Positions 24,487 through 32,249 of a DNA stretch of 35,341 nucleotides are shown piece after piece. The translations under genes and the position numbers were made by a program. The DNA lies in the NCBI GenBank assembly GCA_003221695.1, contig QHSX01000071.1, positions 1-35,341 of the forward strand, in the 5' to 3' direction. Source of the stretch: Candidatus Rokuibacteriota bacterium (lineage in GTDB: Bacteria > Methylomirabilota > Methylomirabilia > Rokubacteriales > CSP1-6). The notes under the pieces were generated by a model that was given only the letters and a program-made list of their open reading frames with translations, made no database searches and had not been told where the DNA came from. Numbering within the stretch: position 1 is the stretch's first letter; the number at the start of each line of letters is the position of its first letter.

Positions 24487-24564
24487 GCGTACTCGGGGTG
24501 CCGAGCTTTGGAGAACCGCGAGCCCGTTGCGAGCCCGGTGGATGATGGTAGGCTAGGGGCCACC

Positions 24565-27090
24565 GTGTCCCTGCGCCGTGCCTCGGTTCTTGCCTTATCC
24601 TCTGTCGCCTTGGCGCTGGTGGGCCGAGCGCCGGCCCTCGCGCAGGTCCCCGGTGGCTTCCTCGAGCTCGCGACCGGCCTGAACGTCCGCCCCCTGCTGA
24701 CCCCGACCGAGATCCAGCTGCTGATCCCGGAACGGGGTCTCTTCACGTTTCCGCCCCCGTACCTGACCCGGGCGGTCCGGCTCACGAACTCGAGCGATTG
24801 CGGCGGAACCGACTGCGTGATCTATGTCGGCTACTCGTACTGGCGCAACATGAACAACCACGTGGGCAGCGACACGATGCTGATCTTCCTCACGCTCGAC
24901 CGCGCCCGTGGCGGCAGCGGCCCGACGCTCTTCAGCTACAACAAGGTCACCGACGCGCTCACCAAGGTTGGGCCCCTCTTCGATCCGGCGAGCCCCCTCA
25001 GCTGGGCCACCGGCGAAGGCTGGTACTTCAGCGCCACCCGGCCGACGACCCTCTATGTCATGGCCGGTCCGAAGCTCCTGCGCTACGACGTCATCGCCAA
25101 GACCTTCGAGACGGTCCTGGACGTCTCGACCCAGCCCGCTCTGTTCGGGACCAACCGATTCGTCTGGCAGACGCACTCGAGCAACGACGATCGCGTCCAT
25201 TCCGCAACCCTGAGGGACGCAACGACGTACCGCGACCTCGGCTGCTTCGCGTATCGCGAGGACACGCAGCAGTTCTTCTACTTCCCTCAGCTCGGCTTCG
25301 AGTACGACGAGTGTCAGATCGATAAGAGCGGCCGCTGGCTCCTGATCAAGGAGAAGCTGGGCACGGATCCCTCTTCCGAGGTCGACAACCGCATCATCGA
25401 CCTCACGACCGGCGTCGAGACCGATCTGCTCGACCGCAATGGCGCCGGTGGCCACTCCGACGACGGCTTTGGCTACATGGTCGCCGCCGACAACCGGAAC
25501 GTGCGACCGAACGCCATCCGGTTGTGGAAGTTTGGCTCAAATCCGCTCGCGCCCGGCCTCGTCGTGTACTACGACCCCCAGTGGATACCTCCGAGCATCG
25601 ACCACATCAGCCACGCCAACGCGATCGCCGGAGTCCCCCCCGAACAGCAATATGTGTGCGGAAGCGGCTCCAGCGCCCTCAACGGTCCGCGCGTCAACGA
25701 GATCGTCTGCTTTCTCCTCGACGGCTCGTTCCGTGTGCTGGTCGTCGCCCCCGTGATGACCGACATGAACGCGTCGGGGGGCGGCGCCAGGTACTCGAAG
25801 TACCCCAAGGGCAACCTCGACGTGACCGGGCAATATTTCATGTGGACGAGCAACCTGGAGGGCTCGCGGCTCGACGCCTTCATCGTCAAGGTCCCGTCCC
25901 AACTGCTGACGGACGGCATCGACCGGGTTCCGCCGACGGCGTCGATGACGGCGCCGATCTCGGGGACGACGGTCACCGGCACGGTCACGACGTCCGCCAC
26001 CGCGGCCGACAACGTCGGCGTCGTCGGTGTCCAGTTCCAGCTCGACGGCGGAAACCTGGGCGCCGAGCGCACGAGCGCTCCGTACTCGTTCGCGTGGGAT
26101 ACGACGACGGTCGCCAACGGCGCCCACACCCTCACCGCCGTCGCCCGCGACGCGGCCGGCAACACCGCCACCGCCAACCCCGTCACGGTCACCGTCAACA
26201 ATCCCGATCTGACGCCGCCCGCGGTCGCGATCACCTCGCCCACCCCCGGTCCGACCTACACCACGAGCAACCCTCTCCTGACGCTCGCGGGGACCGCGTC
26301 CGACATCTTCGGCGTGACCCTGGTGACCTGGGCGAACAACTGGGGCGACATCGGGACGGCGACCGGGACGACGAGCTGGACGGCCAGCGGGATCGTCCTC
26401 AAACTCGGGACGAACGTGTTCACGGTGACGGCGCGGGACGCCGCCGGCAACACCGGAAAAGCCAGCCTCACGGTCACCTTCGTCGACACCGCACCGCCCG
26501 CGGTCGCGATCACCTCGCCCAGCTCCGGTCCGACCTACGCCACGAGTAGCCCTCTGCTGACGCTCGGAGGGACGGCGTCGGACAACGTCGGGGTGACCCT
26601 GGTGACGTGGGCCAACGACCGCAGCAGCGGTGGGACGGCCATCGGGACGGCGAGCTGGACGGCCAGCGGGATCATGCTCCTGCCCGGAACGAACGCGCTG
26701 ACGGTGACGGCGCAAGACGCCACGGGCAACACGGCGACGGCCAGGCTGACGGTCACGCTCGGGACGTTCGAGTTCACCGATGACCCACTCGTGGCGCAGG
26801 GGACGCCCGTCAGGGCGGCGCACATCATGGAGCTCCGGGCGGCGACTGACAGCGTCCGCATGGCCCGCGGGCTGACGCCTTTCGCCTGGACCGATCCCAC
26901 GCTCACGCCGGAGGTCACCCCGGTCAGAGTGGTCCACGTGACGGAGCTCCGGTCAGCGCTGGACGAGGCCTATCAGGCGGCGGGCCGGACGCTTCCCACC
27001 TACACTGATCCCGCGATCGTGGCCGGGCTGACGATCATCGAGGCGATCGACCTGAACGAGGTGCGGGCCGCCGTCCGCGCTCTCGAGTGA
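24565..27090 (+). CDS. Secreted propeller/Ig-repeat protein with C-terminal repeat module
   Basis: An 841-residue exported protein of unknown function. Residues 1-27 are a signal peptide (RRASVLALSSVALALVGRAPALAQ). Residues about 30-450 look like a beta-propeller of short strands (TLFSYNKVTDALTKVG, LLRYDVIAKTFETVLD, RIIDLTTGVETDLLD). Three bacterial Ig-like domains follow at about 454-545, 548-640 and 642-731, each ending GNTATA/GKA-type strands. The last about 108 residues are the module shared with the 28177 gene and the protease. The start is GTG 24565, placing the signal peptide at the N-terminus; an in-frame ATG 57 bases earlier would bury it. There is no c-di-GMP riboswitch in front of this gene. 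Confidence 0.8.
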   Translation: MSLRRASVLALSSVALALVGRAPALAQVPGGFLELATGLNVRPLLTPTEIQLLIPERGLFTFPPPYLTRAVRLTNSSDCGGTDCVIYVGYSYWRNMNNHVGSDTMLIFLTLDRARGGSGPTLFSYNKVTDALTKVGPLFDPASPLSWATGEGWYFSATRPTTLYVMAGPKLLRYDVIAKTFETVLDVSTQPALFGTNRFVWQTHSSNDDRVHSATLRDATTYRDLGCFAYREDTQQFFYFPQLGFEYDECQIDKSGRWLLIKEKLGTDPSSEVDNRIIDLTTGVETDLLDRNGAGGHSDDGFGYMVAADNRNVRPNAIRLWKFGSNPLAPGLVVYYDPQWIPPSIDHISHANAIAGVPPEQQYVCGSGSSALNGPRVNEIVCFLLDGSFRVLVVAPVMTDMNASGGGARYSKYPKGNLDVTGQYFMWTSNLEGSRLDAFIVKVPSQLLTDGIDRVPPTASMTAPISGTTVTGTVTTSATAADNVGVVGVQFQLDGGNLGAERTSAPYSFAWDTTTVANGAHTLTAVARDAAGNTATANPVTVTVNNPDLTPPAVAITSPTPGPTYTTSNPLLTLAGTASDIFGVTLVTWANNWGDIGTATGTTSWTASGIVLKLGTNVFTVTARDAAGNTGKASLTVTFVDTAPPAVAITSPSSGPTYATSSPLLTLGGTASDNVGVTLVTWANDRSSGGTAIGTASWTASGIMLLPGTNALTVTAQDATGNTATARLTVTLGTFEFTDDPLVAQGTPVRAAHIMELRAATDSVRMARGLTPFAWTDPTLTPEVTPVRVVHVTELRSALDEAYQAAGRTLPTYTDPAIVAGLTIIEAIDLNEVRAAVRALE
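25927..26758 (+). repeat. Three Ig-like repeats in the 24565 gene
   Basis: Domains encoded at about 25927-26200, 26210-26490 and 26491-26758. The last two are close copies (PAVAITSP..GPTY, GTASD..GVTLVTWAN, TTSWTASGI, LTVTA.DA.GNTA) and share DNA blocks with the repeats of the 28177 gene, such as GGGACGGCGACCGGGACGAC. Confidence 0.8.
26767..27087 (+). repeat. C-terminal repeat module, copy 1
   Basis: About 107 residues built from three tandem units of 28-38 residues with the pattern TDP-L-(x)-T-VRA-H(I/V)-ELR-A-D. Copies: HIMELRAATDSVR, HVTELRSALDEAY, DLNEVRAAVRALE. The third unit lacks the His. A second copy ends the 28177 gene product and a third begins at 35282. Confidence 0.75.
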
Positions 27091-27247
27091 GGCGATTCCT
27101 CGCGCGGTAGGCGTGTCAGAATGCGCCTCTCTACCGTCGAAGGCGATCCTGCATGTCACTCGCGCCTTCCGCGGCCGATCGGGCGCAACGCGAACGCTTC
27201 CCCGCGATTTCCGGTTATTGCGCGCCCGGATCCGACACGGCCCCTGC
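27091..27247. other. Intergenic stretch upstream of the sigma-54 promoter
   Basis: No gene is visible. A weak stem (GGTAG near 27106 with CTACC near 27131) could end the upstream transcript but has no T-tract. Enhancer sites for a sigma-54 activator would be expected here; I cannot pick out a convincing inverted repeat. Confidence 0.4.
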
Positions 27248-27264
27248 TTGGCACCCTCCCTGCA
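27248..27264 (+). promoter_or_regulatory. Sigma-54 (RpoN) promoter
   Basis: TTGGCAC (27248-27254) and CTGCA (27260-27264) match the -24/-12 elements (TGGCAC, N5, TTGCW) with one mismatch. GG (27250-27251) and GC (27262-27263) are exactly 10 bases apart, the strict sigma-54 rule. Transcription would start near 27275, a few bases before the riboswitch. An RpoN activator of the NtrC type would be needed. Confidence 0.7.
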
Positions 27265-27287
27265 CTAATCCACTACGGATAGAAGAC

Positions 27288-27377
27288 CCCTCCCGATAAG
27301 GGCACACCCGTCGCGAGACGGGGCCGCAAAGCCACGGGTCAAGCAGGGCGCTTGACGGCCGGGCTACCGAAGGAGGG
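27288..27377 (+). promoter_or_regulatory. Cyclic-di-GMP-I (GEMM) riboswitch aptamer
   Basis: Helix P1 pairs CCCTCC (27288-27293) with GGAGGG (27372-27377). Inside are GATAAGGGCAC, a P2 stem CCCGTC/GACGGG (27307-27312, 27317-27322) capped by the GNRA tetraloop GCGA, the hallmark GCAAAGCC (27326-27333), a P3 stem GTCAAGC/GCTTGAC (27338-27344, 27350-27356) and the conserved GGGCTACCGA (27361-27370). These match the class I c-di-GMP aptamer in order and spacing. It lies in the leader of the operon at 27428-31662 directly after a sigma-54 promoter. Confidence 0.88.
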
Positions 27378-27392
27378 CGCAGCACACCTCCC
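27372..27392 (+). promoter_or_regulatory. Alternative hairpin: riboswitch expression platform
   Basis: GGAGGG (27372-27377), the 3' strand of P1, can instead pair with CCTCCC (27387-27392) over a 9-base loop. The two pairings exclude each other. When P1 forms, CTCCC (27388-27392) is free to pair with GGGAG (27417-27421) in the ribosome binding site. This predicts translational repression by c-di-GMP; the sign is inference. Confidence 0.6.
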
Positions 27393-27399
27393 GGGCATT

Positions 27400-27427
27400 G
27401 GTGGTCTTCATCGGAAGGGAGACCACC
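27400..27427 (+). promoter_or_regulatory. Hairpin holding the ribosome binding site in its loop
   Basis: GGTGGTCT (27400-27407) pairs perfectly with AGACCACC (27420-27427), which abuts the ATG at 27428. The GGAAGGG ribosome binding site (27413-27419) is in the 12-base loop. It may present the site to ribosomes in the on state. Confidence 0.55.
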
Positions 27428-28180
27428 ATGTCACCACGTACGACGAGCAGGCGCAGGCTCGTCATCATCACGCTCGTCGCCCTCGTCGCGCTCCCGGCTC
27501 TCGCCCTCGCCACGATCGTCTCCGATCCCATGCGCGTCTTCACGGGGCAGGTGGGCATCGGGGGCACCGCTCCGGCGCTGGCGCGGCTGGACGTCCGCGG
27601 GGACGCCGACACGCGGATCCGGATCGACGGCAGCAAGACCTCGGGCCTCTATTTCACGCGGGCGGGCATCGATGCCGGCACCTTCCGATCCACGGCCACG
27701 GGTCTGGAGGTGTGGACTAGCAACGTCACACTCGCGCTCGCGCTGCAGGGCACCGGAGCCCATTTCCTGGGGAATCTACAGACAGACGGCAACATCAGCT
27801 CGAGATACCAGGACGTCGCGGAGTGGGTCACGGGGCCGCCGTTGCCGGCGGGGACGGTGGTCGTGGCGCAGGACGCGAACCGGGCGATCGCCAGCGACAC
27901 GGCGTACGACACGCGCGTGATCGGCGTCGTCTCTGACCGGCCCGCGCTCCTGCTCGGTGAGCACGGGGCGGACAAGATCAAAATCGCCCACAGCGGTCGC
28001 CTCCGCGTGAAGGTCGTGGCGCCGGTCGCCCCGGGCGACCTCCTGGTAGCGAGCTCTATCTCCGGCCACGCGATGCGCTCGTCACCTCGGGAAGTCAGGC
28101 CCGGGACGATCCTCGGCAAAGCGCTGGAATCCCTGGAGGTGGGACGGGGCGCGGTCCTGACGCTGCTGACACTGCAGTGA
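27428..28180 (+). CDS. Secreted tail-fibre-like protein (VGIG repeat plus chaperone-like C-terminal domain)
   Basis: A 250-residue exported protein, first gene under the c-di-GMP riboswitch. Residues 1-28 are a signal peptide (RRRLVIITLVALVALPALALA). QVGIGGTAPALARLDVRG at 41-58 is the VGIGT-type strand repeat common in phage-tail and adhesin-like proteins. Residues about 127-250 (SSRYQDVAEWV, YDTRVIGVVSDRP, APGDLLVASSISGHAM, PGTILGKALESLEVG) form a beta domain widespread in secreted fibres and resembling phage endosialidase/G2-type C-terminal domains. I cannot tell whether it cleaves itself. The ATG at 27428 follows GGAAGGGAG; a TTG at 27398 is inside the hairpin. It overlaps the next gene (GTGA). 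Confidence 0.78.
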   Translation: MSPRTTSRRRLVIITLVALVALPALALATIVSDPMRVFTGQVGIGGTAPALARLDVRGDADTRIRIDGSKTSGLYFTRAGIDAGTFRSTATGLEVWTSNVTLALALQGTGAHFLGNLQTDGNISSRYQDVAEWVTGPPLPAGTVVVAQDANRAIASDTAYDTRVIGVVSDRPALLLGEHGADKIKIAHSGRLRVKVVAPVAPGDLLVASSISGHAMRSSPREVRPGTILGKALESLEVGRGAVLTLLTLQ

Positions 28181-31100
28181 GCCGCACCGGTCTCGCGCTC
28201 CTCGCCGCGATTGTCGCGATCCTGGCGTGCCCGGTGGACGGCGTCGCGCAGAACGGGACCACGCCCGGGCAAGTGCTCACCTATTCCACGATTCGCTCCA
28301 TCGGGGTCGAGTGGGACATTTCGGGAGACGCCAACCACAACGCCCGAGTCAGCGTCCAGTATCGGGTCCAGGGCACGCCCGCGTGGAGCGCCGCCCTGCC
28401 GCTCGTTCGCGTCGACTACAACGGCTTCAACGGCCTCGCAGGGAGCGTCCTCTTCCTCGATCCCGACACGACCTATGAAGTGAAGCTCGATCTGCTCGAC
28501 CCGGACGGCGGCGCGGCGAGTCGGACCGTGATGGTCGCGACGCGGCCGTTGCCCGCCCTGCCCACGAGCGGCCGGACCTTGCATGTGGTCCCGGGGGCGG
28601 GAGGTGGTGACGGCTCGGCGGCGAACCCGTTCAAAGGGATCGCGGCGGCACAGGCCGTCGCCCAGGCGGGTGACACCTTCCTCGTCCACGCCGGGAGCTA
28701 CAGCGGCCGGACCGCATTCACCAAGCCGGGCATCGACCGCAACTACCTCGTCTGGAAGGGCGCGGGCGATGGCGAAGCGCTCTTTGTCGATGGCATCGAC
28801 GTGTCGGGAAGCCATGTGTGGCTCGAGGGATTGACGGTCAGGAACCTGCCGTATGCCTTGATGTCGAAGAACTGCCCGACCGATGTGGTCCTGAGCCGGA
28901 ACGTGTTCATCAACAACCACTATTCGATCTATCTCCAGCAGGGCGGGAGCTACTGGTACATCGCCGACAACTCCATCACCGGAGACACGCCGGCCGCCAC
29001 CGGGAGCTTCTCCGGTGAAGGCATCGAGATGAACCAACCGTTCTCGGCGTGCGGCTCGAACGGCCACACGGTCGCCCACAATCGGATCACGAATGTGGCC
29101 GACGGGATGTCCTATCCCGGCACCAACGTGGACATCTATGGCAACGACATCTTCGACACCGCCGACGACGGCATCGAACTCGACGAGGGCGGCGCCAACG
29201 TCCGCGTGTGGGGCAACCGCATCCATAACGCCAACCACAACGGCATCGCGTTTCAACCGCAGCAGGGCGCGCCCTGGTACATCATCCGGAACCAGATCGT
29301 GATCAATTCGGAGTCCCCGTTCAAATTCCGCACCACCGATCGGTTCGTGTTGCTGCACAACACCATCGTGGGGTGGGGCAAGATGATCTGCTGCAACGAC
29401 GACCACCTCCTGAGGTCGTTTTCGCGAAACAACCTCTGGATCTCCGCCAACGGCGGCCAGATGTGGTGGTTCCCGGTCGGGGGCGACTGGCGGACGGACC
29501 TCGACTACGACGGGTTCGACTGGGGGTCCGCGTCGGCGCCCTTCACGTACGCAGGCGTCAGTTTCCCGAACCTCCTCGGCCTGGCGGGCGTGGGCCTCGA
29601 GAAAAAAGGTCTCCGCATCGACAAGAACGCCTGCTTTCAGACCTTCAACGTGCCGGGGAATTCGCCGACGACGATCCCACCGCAGTTCATGAGCCTGAAG
29701 GCCGGATGCAACGCGATCGACGCGGGCGCGCTCCTGCCCAACATCAACGACGGCTTTCTCGGAAGCGCGCCGGACCTGGGCGCCTACGAGTTCGGCCAAC
29801 CGCTGCCCGTCTATGGGCCGCGGGCAGTGGGCGATCCGCCGCCGCCGCCGCCCCCGCCGGCCCCGGCCTTGAAGGTGTACCGCGCCGGCGCCCCGATCAC
29901 GCTGGACGGCCTCCTGGGTGAGTGGAGCGGTAGCGACGCAGCCTCGTTCAGCGGGAGCTCCAGCAGCGCCAGCGCGGCCCTGCTGTGGGACGACACGAAC
30001 CTCTATGTGGCGTTCCAGGTGAATGACACGCGGTTGAATGCGACGCAGACGGCCCGCGACGCGGGCACGCTGTACCTGGACGACAGCATCGAGATCTACC
30101 TCGACACCGGCAATGACCGGGCGAGCGCGATGCAGCCCGACGACTACCAGCTCCTGGTGAACCTGAACAACGCCCAGGGGGATCTCCGCGGGACCGGCAC
30201 CGGCAAGGACGCTGCCTGGAACGCGGTCTGGCAGAGCGTGGTCCGGCTCCAGGGCACCCTGAACAATGACGGGGACACCGACAGCGGGTACACCGTCGAG
30301 ATCGCCATTCCGTGGGCGCAGCTCGGCGTGACGCCGACGAGCGGCATGGTGCTCGGGCTGGACCTCGCGGTCGACGACAGCGATCCCACGAGCCCCACCA
30401 CCTACGAGACCTTCGACTGGGCCGGGCTCGCCCCGAATCCCTATGCCCAGCCGTCCCTGTGGAAACAGGTCCAGCTGGTGGGGACGCCGCCCCCGCTCGC
30501 CGACACCACGCCTCCGTCGGTCGCCATCACTGTCCCATCCTCCGGCGCGACCGTGTCGGGGACGGTGACGGTGACGGCGAACGCCTCGGACAACGTGGGC
30601 GTGCTGGGCGTGCAGCTGAGGCTCGACGGCGCGCCGCTGGGCGCGGAGGACACCACGACGCCCTACACCGTCGCCTGGAACACGACGTCAGCGCTCAACG
30701 GGGTTCACACGCTCACCGCCGTTGCCCGCGATGGAGCCGGCAACACCGCGACCTCCGCTCCCGTCGTCGTGACGGTCGGCAATGCCGACGTGACCCCGCC
30801 GACCGTCGCGATCACCTCGCCCACTTCCAGTCCGACCTTCACCACGAACACCTCCTCGATGGCGCTCGGGGGCACCGCGTCGGACAACGTCGGCGTGACC
30901 CAGGTGACGTGGATGAACAGCCGGGGCGGCAACGGGACGGCGACCGGGACGACGAGCTGGACGGCCAGCGGGATCGGCCTCCAGATGGGCACAAACATGC
31001 TGACGGTCCAGGCGCGGGACGCTGCGGGCAACACCGCGACGGACATGTTGACGGTCACGCGGACCGACACCGCGCCACCCACCGTGACCATCAGCGCGCC

Positions 31101-31662
31101 CACCTCCGGTCCCACCTTCACCACGAGCACCTCCTCGCTGACGCTCGCGGGGACCGCGTCGGACAACGTCGGCGTGACCCAGGTGACGTGGATGAACAGC
31201 CTGGGTGGCAACGGGACGGCGACCGGGACGACGAGCTGGACGGCCGGCGTCGCCCTCCAGACGGGGGCAAACGTGCTGACGGTCCAGGCGCGGGACGCCG
31301 CCGGCAACACCGCGACGGCCACGTTGACGGTGACCCTCACGGATACCTTCGCGTTCGCCGATGACCCGCTCGCGGCTCAGAGCACGATGGTCAAGGCGGT
31401 GCACATCCTGGAGCTTCGAGCGGCCATTGACAGCGTCCGCGTGGCCCGCGGGCTGACGGCCTTTGCCTGGACCGACCCCACCCTCACGCCCGGGAGCACC
31501 ACGGCCAGAGCGGTCCACGTGACGGAGCTGCGGTCAGCGCTGAACCAGGCGTATCAGGCGGCGGGCCAGGCGCTGCCGACGTACACCGATGCGCCGGCGG
31601 GAGCCGCCGCGATCAAGGCCACCCACCTGAACGAGGTGCGCACAGCCGTCCGCGCTCTGTAG
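28177..31662 (+). CDS. Large secreted beta-helix/CBM9-like/Ig protein with C-terminal repeat module
   Basis: A 1161-residue exported protein. Residues 1-25 are a signal peptide; about 30-127 an FN3-like domain (TTYEVKLDLLDPDGG); about 135-545 a right-handed parallel beta-helix of the pectate-lyase/NosD type, with repeated short N- and G-rich turns (NVDIYGNDIFDTADDGIELD, NVRVWGNRIHNANHNGIAFQ); then an eight-proline linker (about 554-562); about 565-768 a CBM9-like domain (ITLDGLLGEWSGSDA, LYLDDSIEIYLDTGNDR); three Ig-like domains; and the shared C-terminal module. A polysaccharide-binding or -cleaving surface protein is likely, but no catalytic residues can be assigned. GTG start, coupled to the upstream gene. 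Confidence 0.85.
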   Translation: MSRTGLALLAAIVAILACPVDGVAQNGTTPGQVLTYSTIRSIGVEWDISGDANHNARVSVQYRVQGTPAWSAALPLVRVDYNGFNGLAGSVLFLDPDTTYEVKLDLLDPDGGAASRTVMVATRPLPALPTSGRTLHVVPGAGGGDGSAANPFKGIAAAQAVAQAGDTFLVHAGSYSGRTAFTKPGIDRNYLVWKGAGDGEALFVDGIDVSGSHVWLEGLTVRNLPYALMSKNCPTDVVLSRNVFINNHYSIYLQQGGSYWYIADNSITGDTPAATGSFSGEGIEMNQPFSACGSNGHTVAHNRITNVADGMSYPGTNVDIYGNDIFDTADDGIELDEGGANVRVWGNRIHNANHNGIAFQPQQGAPWYIIRNQIVINSESPFKFRTTDRFVLLHNTIVGWGKMICCNDDHLLRSFSRNNLWISANGGQMWWFPVGGDWRTDLDYDGFDWGSASAPFTYAGVSFPNLLGLAGVGLEKKGLRIDKNACFQTFNVPGNSPTTIPPQFMSLKAGCNAIDAGALLPNINDGFLGSAPDLGAYEFGQPLPVYGPRAVGDPPPPPPPPAPALKVYRAGAPITLDGLLGEWSGSDAASFSGSSSSASAALLWDDTNLYVAFQVNDTRLNATQTARDAGTLYLDDSIEIYLDTGNDRASAMQPDDYQLLVNLNNAQGDLRGTGTGKDAAWNAVWQSVVRLQGTLNNDGDTDSGYTVEIAIPWAQLGVTPTSGMVLGLDLAVDDSDPTSPTTYETFDWAGLAPNPYAQPSLWKQVQLVGTPPPLADTTPPSVAITVPSSGATVSGTVTVTANASDNVGVLGVQLRLDGAPLGAEDTTTPYTVAWNTTSALNGVHTLTAVARDGAGNTATSAPVVVTVGNADVTPPTVAITSPTSSPTFTTNTSSMALGGTASDNVGVTQVTWMNSRGGNGTATGTTSWTASGIGLQMGTNMLTVQARDAAGNTATDMLTVTRTDTAPPTVTISAPTSGPTFTTSTSSLTLAGTASDNVGVTQVTWMNSLGGNGTATGTTSWTAGVALQTGANVLTVQARDAAGNTATATLTVTLTDTFAFADDPLAAQSTMVKAVHILELRAAIDSVRVARGLTAFAWTDPTLTPGSTTARAVHVTELRSALNQAYQAAGQALPTYTDAPAGAAAIKATHLNEVRTAVRAL
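29838..29874 (+). repeat. CCG-rich tract coding a polyproline linker
   Basis: A run of proline codons (eight in a row) separates the beta-helix from the CBM9-like domain. It looks like an ordinary flexible or stiff interdomain linker. Confidence 0.7.
30788..31340 (+). repeat. Near-identical tandem Ig-domain repeats in the 28177 gene
   Basis: Two units with a period of about 279 bases (93 residues). Long DNA blocks are identical between them, for example ACCGCGTCGGACAACGTCGG and GTGACGTGGATGAACAGC, including synonymous positions, pointing to recent duplication or gene conversion. The same blocks recur in diverged form in the 24565 gene. Confidence 0.8.
31348..31659 (+). repeat. C-terminal repeat module, copy 2
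   Basis: Same module as 26767-27087: FADDPLAAQ start, then HILELRAAIDSVR, HVTELRSALNQAY and HLNEVRTAVRAL units. The DNA is also similar (CGGTCAGCGCTG, TATCAGGCGGCGGGCC), so the modules share recent ancestry. Confidence 0.75.
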
Positions 31663-31696
31663 CGGTCTCGATCGTCCGCCCCCTCGAGCAATTTCC

Positions 31697-31723
31697 AGTA
31701 GGGGCAACCCCCACTTGTTTTTT
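31697..31723 (+). terminator. Rho-independent terminator of the riboswitch operon
   Basis: AGT-A-GGGG (31697-31704) pairs with CCCC-C-ACT (to 31715) with one internal A-C mismatch over a CAA(C) loop, and is followed by TTGTTTTTT (31715-31723). It is the clearest intrinsic terminator in the window and separates the beta-helix operon from the PrcB-protease pair. Confidence 0.75.
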
Positions 31724-31763
31724 CCCTTTCGTCTGGCATTGTGATTGCGAACGAGGGGGCTCG

Positions 31764-32249
31764 ATGGTTCTCAGGACGACGTCTACGGTAATCACCGGAG
31801 GCGTCCTCATGTTCGTGGCGGCGTGTTCCGTCCGGGCGGTCGGTCAGGCGGCATCGGAAACCACGGGGGTGCCGTTTGCCACCGTCGCGGGAGGATTCTC
31901 CAGCGGGATCCGCGAGCCGACCCAGATCGTGATCCGGACTCACGACGAGTGGGTCGCGTTCTGGGGGCGACACACACGGACCCAGGTCGCCCCGCCAGTC
32001 GCCCCCGCGGTCGATTTTTCGCGCGAAATGGTCGTCGGCGTCTTCCTGGGGGAGCAGGCGACGGGCGGCTACGAGGTCAAGATCACCAAGGTGGAGCGGA
32101 CCGGCTCCGAGCTTCGCGTGCACTACCGCCGTAAGGCGCCCGATCCGGGCGCCATTCTGGTCCAGGCGCTGACCCAACCCTATCACGTGATCAAGGTGTC
32201 GCGGGATCCCGGCCCCCTGGTCTTCTTCCGCGAGAGTTTGGTGCGATGA
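31764..32249 (+). CDS. PrcB-family protease-complex lipoprotein
   Basis: A 161-residue exported protein with a PrcB C-terminal-type domain. A signal sequence runs to a lipobox-like VAAC with Cys21, so it is probably a lipoprotein (Ser at +2). The domain shows the family pattern: THDEWVAFWGRHT near 59-71, VDFSREMVVGVFLGEQATGGY with the conserved TGGY near 82-102, and ALTQPYHVIKVSRD near the end. In Treponema denticola PrcB joins PrcA and the subtilisin-like PrtP to form dentilisin. Here the next gene, overlapping by ATGA, is a subtilisin-like protease. A role in folding, anchoring or inhibiting that protease is inferred. GAGGGGG precedes the ATG. Confidence 0.82.
   Translation: MVLRTTSTVITGGVLMFVAACSVRAVGQAASETTGVPFATVAGGFSSGIREPTQIVIRTHDEWVAFWGRHTRTQVAPPVAPAVDFSREMVVGVFLGEQATGGYEVKITKVERTGSELRVHYRRKAPDPGAILVQALTQPYHVIKVSRDPGPLVFFRESLVR

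Follow-up and report, generated by a model that had tools for sequence, protein, structure and literature searches.

A Predicted Two-Input Control Region

A sigma-54 promoter followed by a c-di-GMP riboswitch with a helix-X expression platform probably forms a two-input control region ahead of two genes for secreted-looking proteins (probability about 0.78). The region lies in a 35,341-nt stretch of Rokubacteria DNA (the window), and the same two-lock arrangement appears to be the rule for c-di-GMP-I aptamers across the Rokubacteria order. The promoter, the aptamer, the conserved platform and its pairing potential were all established at the level of sequence and its comparison between loci. 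The source genome, that of an uncultured soil bacterium, comprises 4.6 Mb in 109 contigs. Promoter and riboswitch together occupy the 337 bp that separate the gene of an 860-aa Ig-domain protein (24508-27090) from the overlapping genes at 27428-28180 and 28177-31662; all features described below are on the plus strand.

In the proposed mechanism, RpoN-RNA polymerase would occupy the -24/-12 element and would require an AAA+ activator, which probably uses the ATTTCCGG region. The RNA would start at about 27275 with a short leader, followed by the c-di-GMP aptamer. When the ligand is absent, the leader and the P1 5' strand would pair with CGGG...GGTCTTC (helix X) while the ribosome-binding site is yet to be transcribed, and the site would stay open. 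When c-di-GMP is bound, P1 would be locked and the freed GGTGGTCTTC element would fold onto the ribosome-binding site, and this masking would switch off translation of both secreted proteins.

Promoter and Aptamer

The -24/-12 element TTGGCACCCTCCCTGCA (27248-27264), TTGGCAC-N5-CTGCA with TGGCAC and TGC boxes, has the strict GG-N10-GC spacing described in the first-pass annotation. Only five sites on the two strands of the 35-kb window reach 9 bits, and this one scores highest; the matrix was built from sigma-54 consensus values, and with it the contrast with controls matters and absolute bits do not. The predicted transcription start (27275) is 12 nt past the -12 C (27263) and 17 nt 5' of the aptamer. 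The genome encodes one rpoN, about 20 sigma-54 activator domains and GGDEF proteins. We infer both the RpoN dependence of the promoter and the identity of its activator.

A class I c-di-GMP aptamer was found by cmscan at 27292-27372, with 70.2 bits for RF03167 (E = 7.8e-15 over the window, 4.7e-17 locally) and 67.7 bits for RF01051, the Rfam GEMM model against which the annotation had proposed to check it. The GNRA-capped P2 (GUC-GCGA-GAC), GCAAAGCC and CTACCGA are each present, as had been noted. The description of a full class I aptamer thus stands with regard to score and specificity bases, except that the best model is RF03167 and not plain GEMM. In the numbering of PMC3764141, the window has G20 at 27301, A47 at 27328 and C92 at 27367, and these are the ligand-contacting bases in Vc2 (PMC3764141, PMC4744006). 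Because the three bases are canonical, c-di-GMP is the expected ligand of the window aptamer.

Promoter-Aptamer Coupling across the Order

All eight aptamers of the genome have a GG-N10-GC element upstream, about 40-55 nt away at a nearly constant distance, so chance can be excluded for the pairing seen in the window. Two of the genome's aptamers (L006 and L007, on contigs C20 and C48) are identical, lie at contig ends and have near-identical promoters; they represent a recently duplicated riboswitch locus that the assembly has probably split.

We then considered 60 Rokubacteria genomes, 38 of which had aptamers; 97 aptamers were read, 96 with enough upstream sequence. An element of at least 12 bits was present in 70/96 (73%) and one of at least 8.9 bits in 86/96. 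Among these 86 elements, 84 start between -31 and -62, and hence 84/96 aptamers are coupled. The 12-bit score was reached in 0.3% of dinucleotide shuffles. No 12-bit element was found in the reverse strand, downstream or far-upstream control stretches of the order aptamers, nor upstream of any of 30 cobalamin riboswitches of the same genomes. Genome-wide, the promoter motif was not enriched (10 sites versus 25 for the reversed pattern), and 5 of the 10 sites lie directly before aptamers. The earlier proposal of two inputs in series is supported by the coupling, by its absence at cobalamin riboswitches, and by the presence of rpoN, activators and GGDEF proteins.

A scan of 84,980 genomes returned the joint promoter-aptamer pattern in 93 places, many of them in Desulfobacterota; we rejected it as evidence outside Rokubacteria, given a rough chance rate of 0.2-0.5% of aptamers. 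A sample from the class Desulfobacteria gave elements of at least 12 bits at 5/30 aptamers versus 0/30 in far-upstream controls, which indicates that the coupling is present there but is not the rule. All five of these elements (sample L262-L290 and L208) precede GGC/CGCAAAGCC-like cores and none precedes a GCC/CGGAAAGCC core.

Promoter Classes and Candidate Activators

The order promoters fall into class A (47 promoters; TTGGCAY...(G/C/A)TGCA) and class B (39 promoters; TGGCRCGG..TTGCT). The textbook sigma-54 -12 box is TTGCA. That of class A is GTGCA or CTGCA instead, which we counted against our preferred explanation. Genes behind class A promoters encode secreted Ig, fibronectin-type and beta-helix proteins. 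Those behind class B encode receivers, a receiver-PilZ-GAF protein, an MlaC-like protein and a glycosyltransferase, with a prepilin-type protein in this genome. The L045 aptamer precedes a receiver-PilZ-GAF protein, as a domain scan showed, and the protein behind the L077 aptamer begins alike; this kind of protein, downstream of an RNA sensor of c-di-GMP, is likely to be a protein sensor of the same messenger.

The motif ATTTCC(A/G)GA occurs at -46 to -38, about 42 bp 5' of the -24 box, in 19/47 class A promoters, compared with 0-2 in control windows and 0/39 in class B. It may well be an activator site. Its copy in the window, ATTTCCGG (27207-27214, 42 bp 5' of the -24 element), is a candidate site for the sigma-54 activator or for another DNA-binding partner.

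The class A module also occurs without a riboswitch. A second module in the window (31691-31749; ATTTCCAG, then TGGCATTGTGATTGCG, spacing 43) is followed by two genes, one for a PrcB-like protein, with its likely start at 31809 behind the SD sequence GGAGG, and one for an S8 subtilase that is cut off by the contig end. Another module (contig C11, position 73813) lies ahead of a beta-helix-like secreted protein. Promoter and riboswitch are therefore separable inputs. The second promoter copy, the upstream motif and the expression platform go beyond the first-pass annotation.

Ten aptamers have no good element. For four of them (L043, L048, L071 and L078), the gene immediately downstream encodes a sigma-54 activator of the receiver-AAA+ (NtrC) type, a pattern that was noticed post hoc at four loci, two of which are close relatives. 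Contig C5 encodes a 374-aa AAA+/HTH_8 activator without a receiver domain, close to and 5' of a class A aptamer; its neighbours are a receiver protein and one that matches GGDEF very weakly. Relatives sharing 66-80% identity are encoded close to class A aptamers in G002 and G019, and at 10 kb from one in G014. We treat it as a candidate class A activator and as a lead only, since the density of activator genes makes some such neighbours expected. Tentatively, the c-di-GMP-I riboswitch might be an obligate RpoN partner in an order-wide feed-forward circuit, with one layer of riboswitches controlling sigma-54 activator genes and another placed behind sigma-54 promoters of surface, pilin and receiver genes; we hold this to be possible but somewhat doubtful. 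If it is true, c-di-GMP would act on sigma-54 activators as well as on their targets.

Expression Platform

Class A loci share a layout of leader GGGAAGACC, aptamer, P1 3' strand, CACCCC, CGGGACA, GGTGGTCTTCC, AAGGGAGACCACC and start codon, in which the leader and P1 5' strand are complementary to CGGG...GGTCTTCC (helix X). In the window, the crossed-pair duplex test places the 5' arm of helix X at 27282-27295 (leader GAAGACC plus the P1 5' strand). Pairing and folding place the 3' arm, which is also the anti-P1 element, at 27387-27409 (CCTCCCGGGCATTGGTGGTCTTC; GGTCTTC at 27403-27409). A predicted hairpin, GGTGGTCTTC / GGAGACCACCA (27400-27428), conserved in class A, would mask the ribosome-binding site GGAAGGGAG (27413-27421) up to the start codon; the ATG at 27428 lies 6 nt beyond that site.

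Helix X arms taken from the same locus paired better than arms crossed between loci (z = -4.2 for class A, z = -6.35 for all loci, in a test that ignores the kinship of the sequences). With kinship ignored in the same way, real partners were also better than crossed ones for the P1 3' strand and CACCCC (z = -2.5). The negative controls of the crossed-pair test gave no pair-specific complementarity. When class A RNAs were folded as transcripts ending before the ribosome-binding site, helix X formed in 33/35, compared with 14/35 when leaders were shuffled. It formed in only 5 full-length RNAs, because there the masking hairpin takes GGTCTTCC. For the window RNA, the computed energies were -69.5 kcal/mol for the X state, -69.9 kcal/mol for P1 plus the hairpin, -70.9 kcal/mol for the unconstrained minimum and -60.7 kcal/mol for P1 combined with X. 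The two alternative states fall within 1.5 kcal/mol.

Equilibrium folding, with P1 forced or free, gave no indication of the regulatory sign. In nearly all full-length RNAs the masking hairpin wins at equilibrium, whether P1 is forced or not; thus only a kinetic switch would fit, and the sign does not follow from folding alone. In 42 class A loci the leader motif mostly begins at +5 to +10 from the predicted start, which would explain the fixed distance between promoter and aptamer.

Alternative Explanations

As for the sign alone, we infer from the modelled states, with reasonable confidence, that c-di-GMP turns translation off. The same architecture with the opposite sign, in which c-di-GMP turns translation on, seems unlikely. 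Bound P1 could, for example, stack with a helix formed by the leader and GGTCTTC and leave the ribosome-binding site free. Leader and GGTCTTC can pair outside P1 with little overlap, and their complementarity is pair-specific (z = -2.8, crossed-pair test, kinship ignored). Furthermore, higher levels of surface proteins are a common effect of c-di-GMP. However, the state with P1 plus the leader helix costs about 9 kcal/mol in the window relative to the alternatives, and the P1 5' strand shows complementarity of its own to the downstream element (z = -2.5, again with kinship ignored), a pairing incompatible with P1.

That the aptamer binds another ligand, either the GGC-variant family's own or 3',3'-cGAMP, is very unlikely. 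RF03167 is its best Rfam model, and relatives with A20, the cGAMP-type (GEMM-Ib) base, make up 4/97 order aptamers, one of them at L097, the orthologous locus of another genus. Nevertheless, the bases of the window are those of Vc2: G, not A, stands at 27301, and A at 27328, where the model alignment puts the consensus G of RF03167, so that the G replacing A47 in GGC variants is absent. The letters GGC in the family name may denote positions 20/47/92, on a reading from the model consensus, and the RF03167 label of the window aptamer probably reflects overall sequence likeness. The four A20 aptamers (L073, L085, L089 and L097) occur in the same order behind the same kind of promoter. It is also highly improbable that GG-N10-GC is a repressor or activator site and that another sigma factor drives the gene. 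A GCAC...GTGC inverted repeat, which could be such a binding site, is frequent in class A elements, but class B lacks the repeat and still has GG-N10-GC, with TTGCT, and the spacing is exact in both classes; a repeat-based site in place of a promoter was rejected for its absence from class B. The genome's single rpoN with many activators, and the four element-free aptamers that precede sigma-54 activator genes, likewise favour a promoter.

Downstream Genes

The first gene behind the riboswitch (27428-28180) encodes a 250-aa protein that is likely secreted, judging from its N-terminal hydrophobic segment. Its family matches are only weak, with a C-terminal part weakly like Peptidase_G2, and neither PHROGs nor NCBIfam yielded a usable name. 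The AlphaFold model (mean pLDDT 36) did not confirm a fibre-like fold. An orthologue in another genus (L097) is 77% identical and also stands behind a promoter and an aptamer, the latter with A20. The second gene (28177-31662), overlapping the first by 4 bp, encodes a 1161-aa protein with beta-helix, CBM9 and Ig domains that looks secreted. The suggestion that both products are exported therefore agrees with our analysis, as does the beta-helix assignment, while "fibre-like" is still a guess in view of the weak family matches.

A C-terminal domain of about 100 aa, with repeated 'DPTLTPG..VKAVHxTELRTALN' units (window 26773-27084 and 31354-31659), is common to both large Ig-domain proteins of the window and to other riboswitch-controlled secreted proteins. 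We found no Pfam family for it. The genome holds nine copies, including those at the C5 and C49 riboswitch loci, and it is possibly a sorting or anchoring domain.

Implications and Comparison with Known Systems

Riboswitches are usually studied separately from the promoter of their RNA. Here, the promoter type is tied to the sensor in 84/96 cases of an uncultured order, and a fixed spacing puts the predicted start a few bases ahead of the switching leader. This arrangement would be a natural logic gate of activator signal AND second messenger. It also allows a c-di-GMP/RpoN regulon to be predicted in a lineage that has no genetics, and riboswitch-free genes with the same promoter are built-in controls. 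The single parts are known. Our literature search, largely of openly available papers, did not find a pairing of a sigma-54 promoter with a c-di-GMP riboswitch, and as far as the searched literature goes the order-wide pairing appears to be new.

Sigma-54 control of the bacterial exterior has been described, with RpoN promoters before surface genes (PMC3162934). That account has such promoters as here, and its abstract mentions no riboswitch in series. GEMM riboswitches of Geobacter have surface and fibronectin-type genes downstream (PMC2996986). The cGAMP (GEMM-Ib) riboswitches of this genus share the scaffold with the window aptamer, which has G20 and not A20; our literature search found none of them described as coupled to sigma-54. 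The c-di-GMP-I-GGC family (RF03167) gives the best covariance-model score, yet the window does not carry the family-consensus G at the A47 position. Vc2 of Vibrio cholerae (GEMM-I, RF01051) shares with the window the aptamer sequence, the fold and the bases G20/A47/C92. Unlike Vc2 and RF01051, the Rokubacteria aptamers are coupled order-wide to a sigma-54 promoter and are followed by a conserved platform of helix X and a ribosome-binding-site hairpin.
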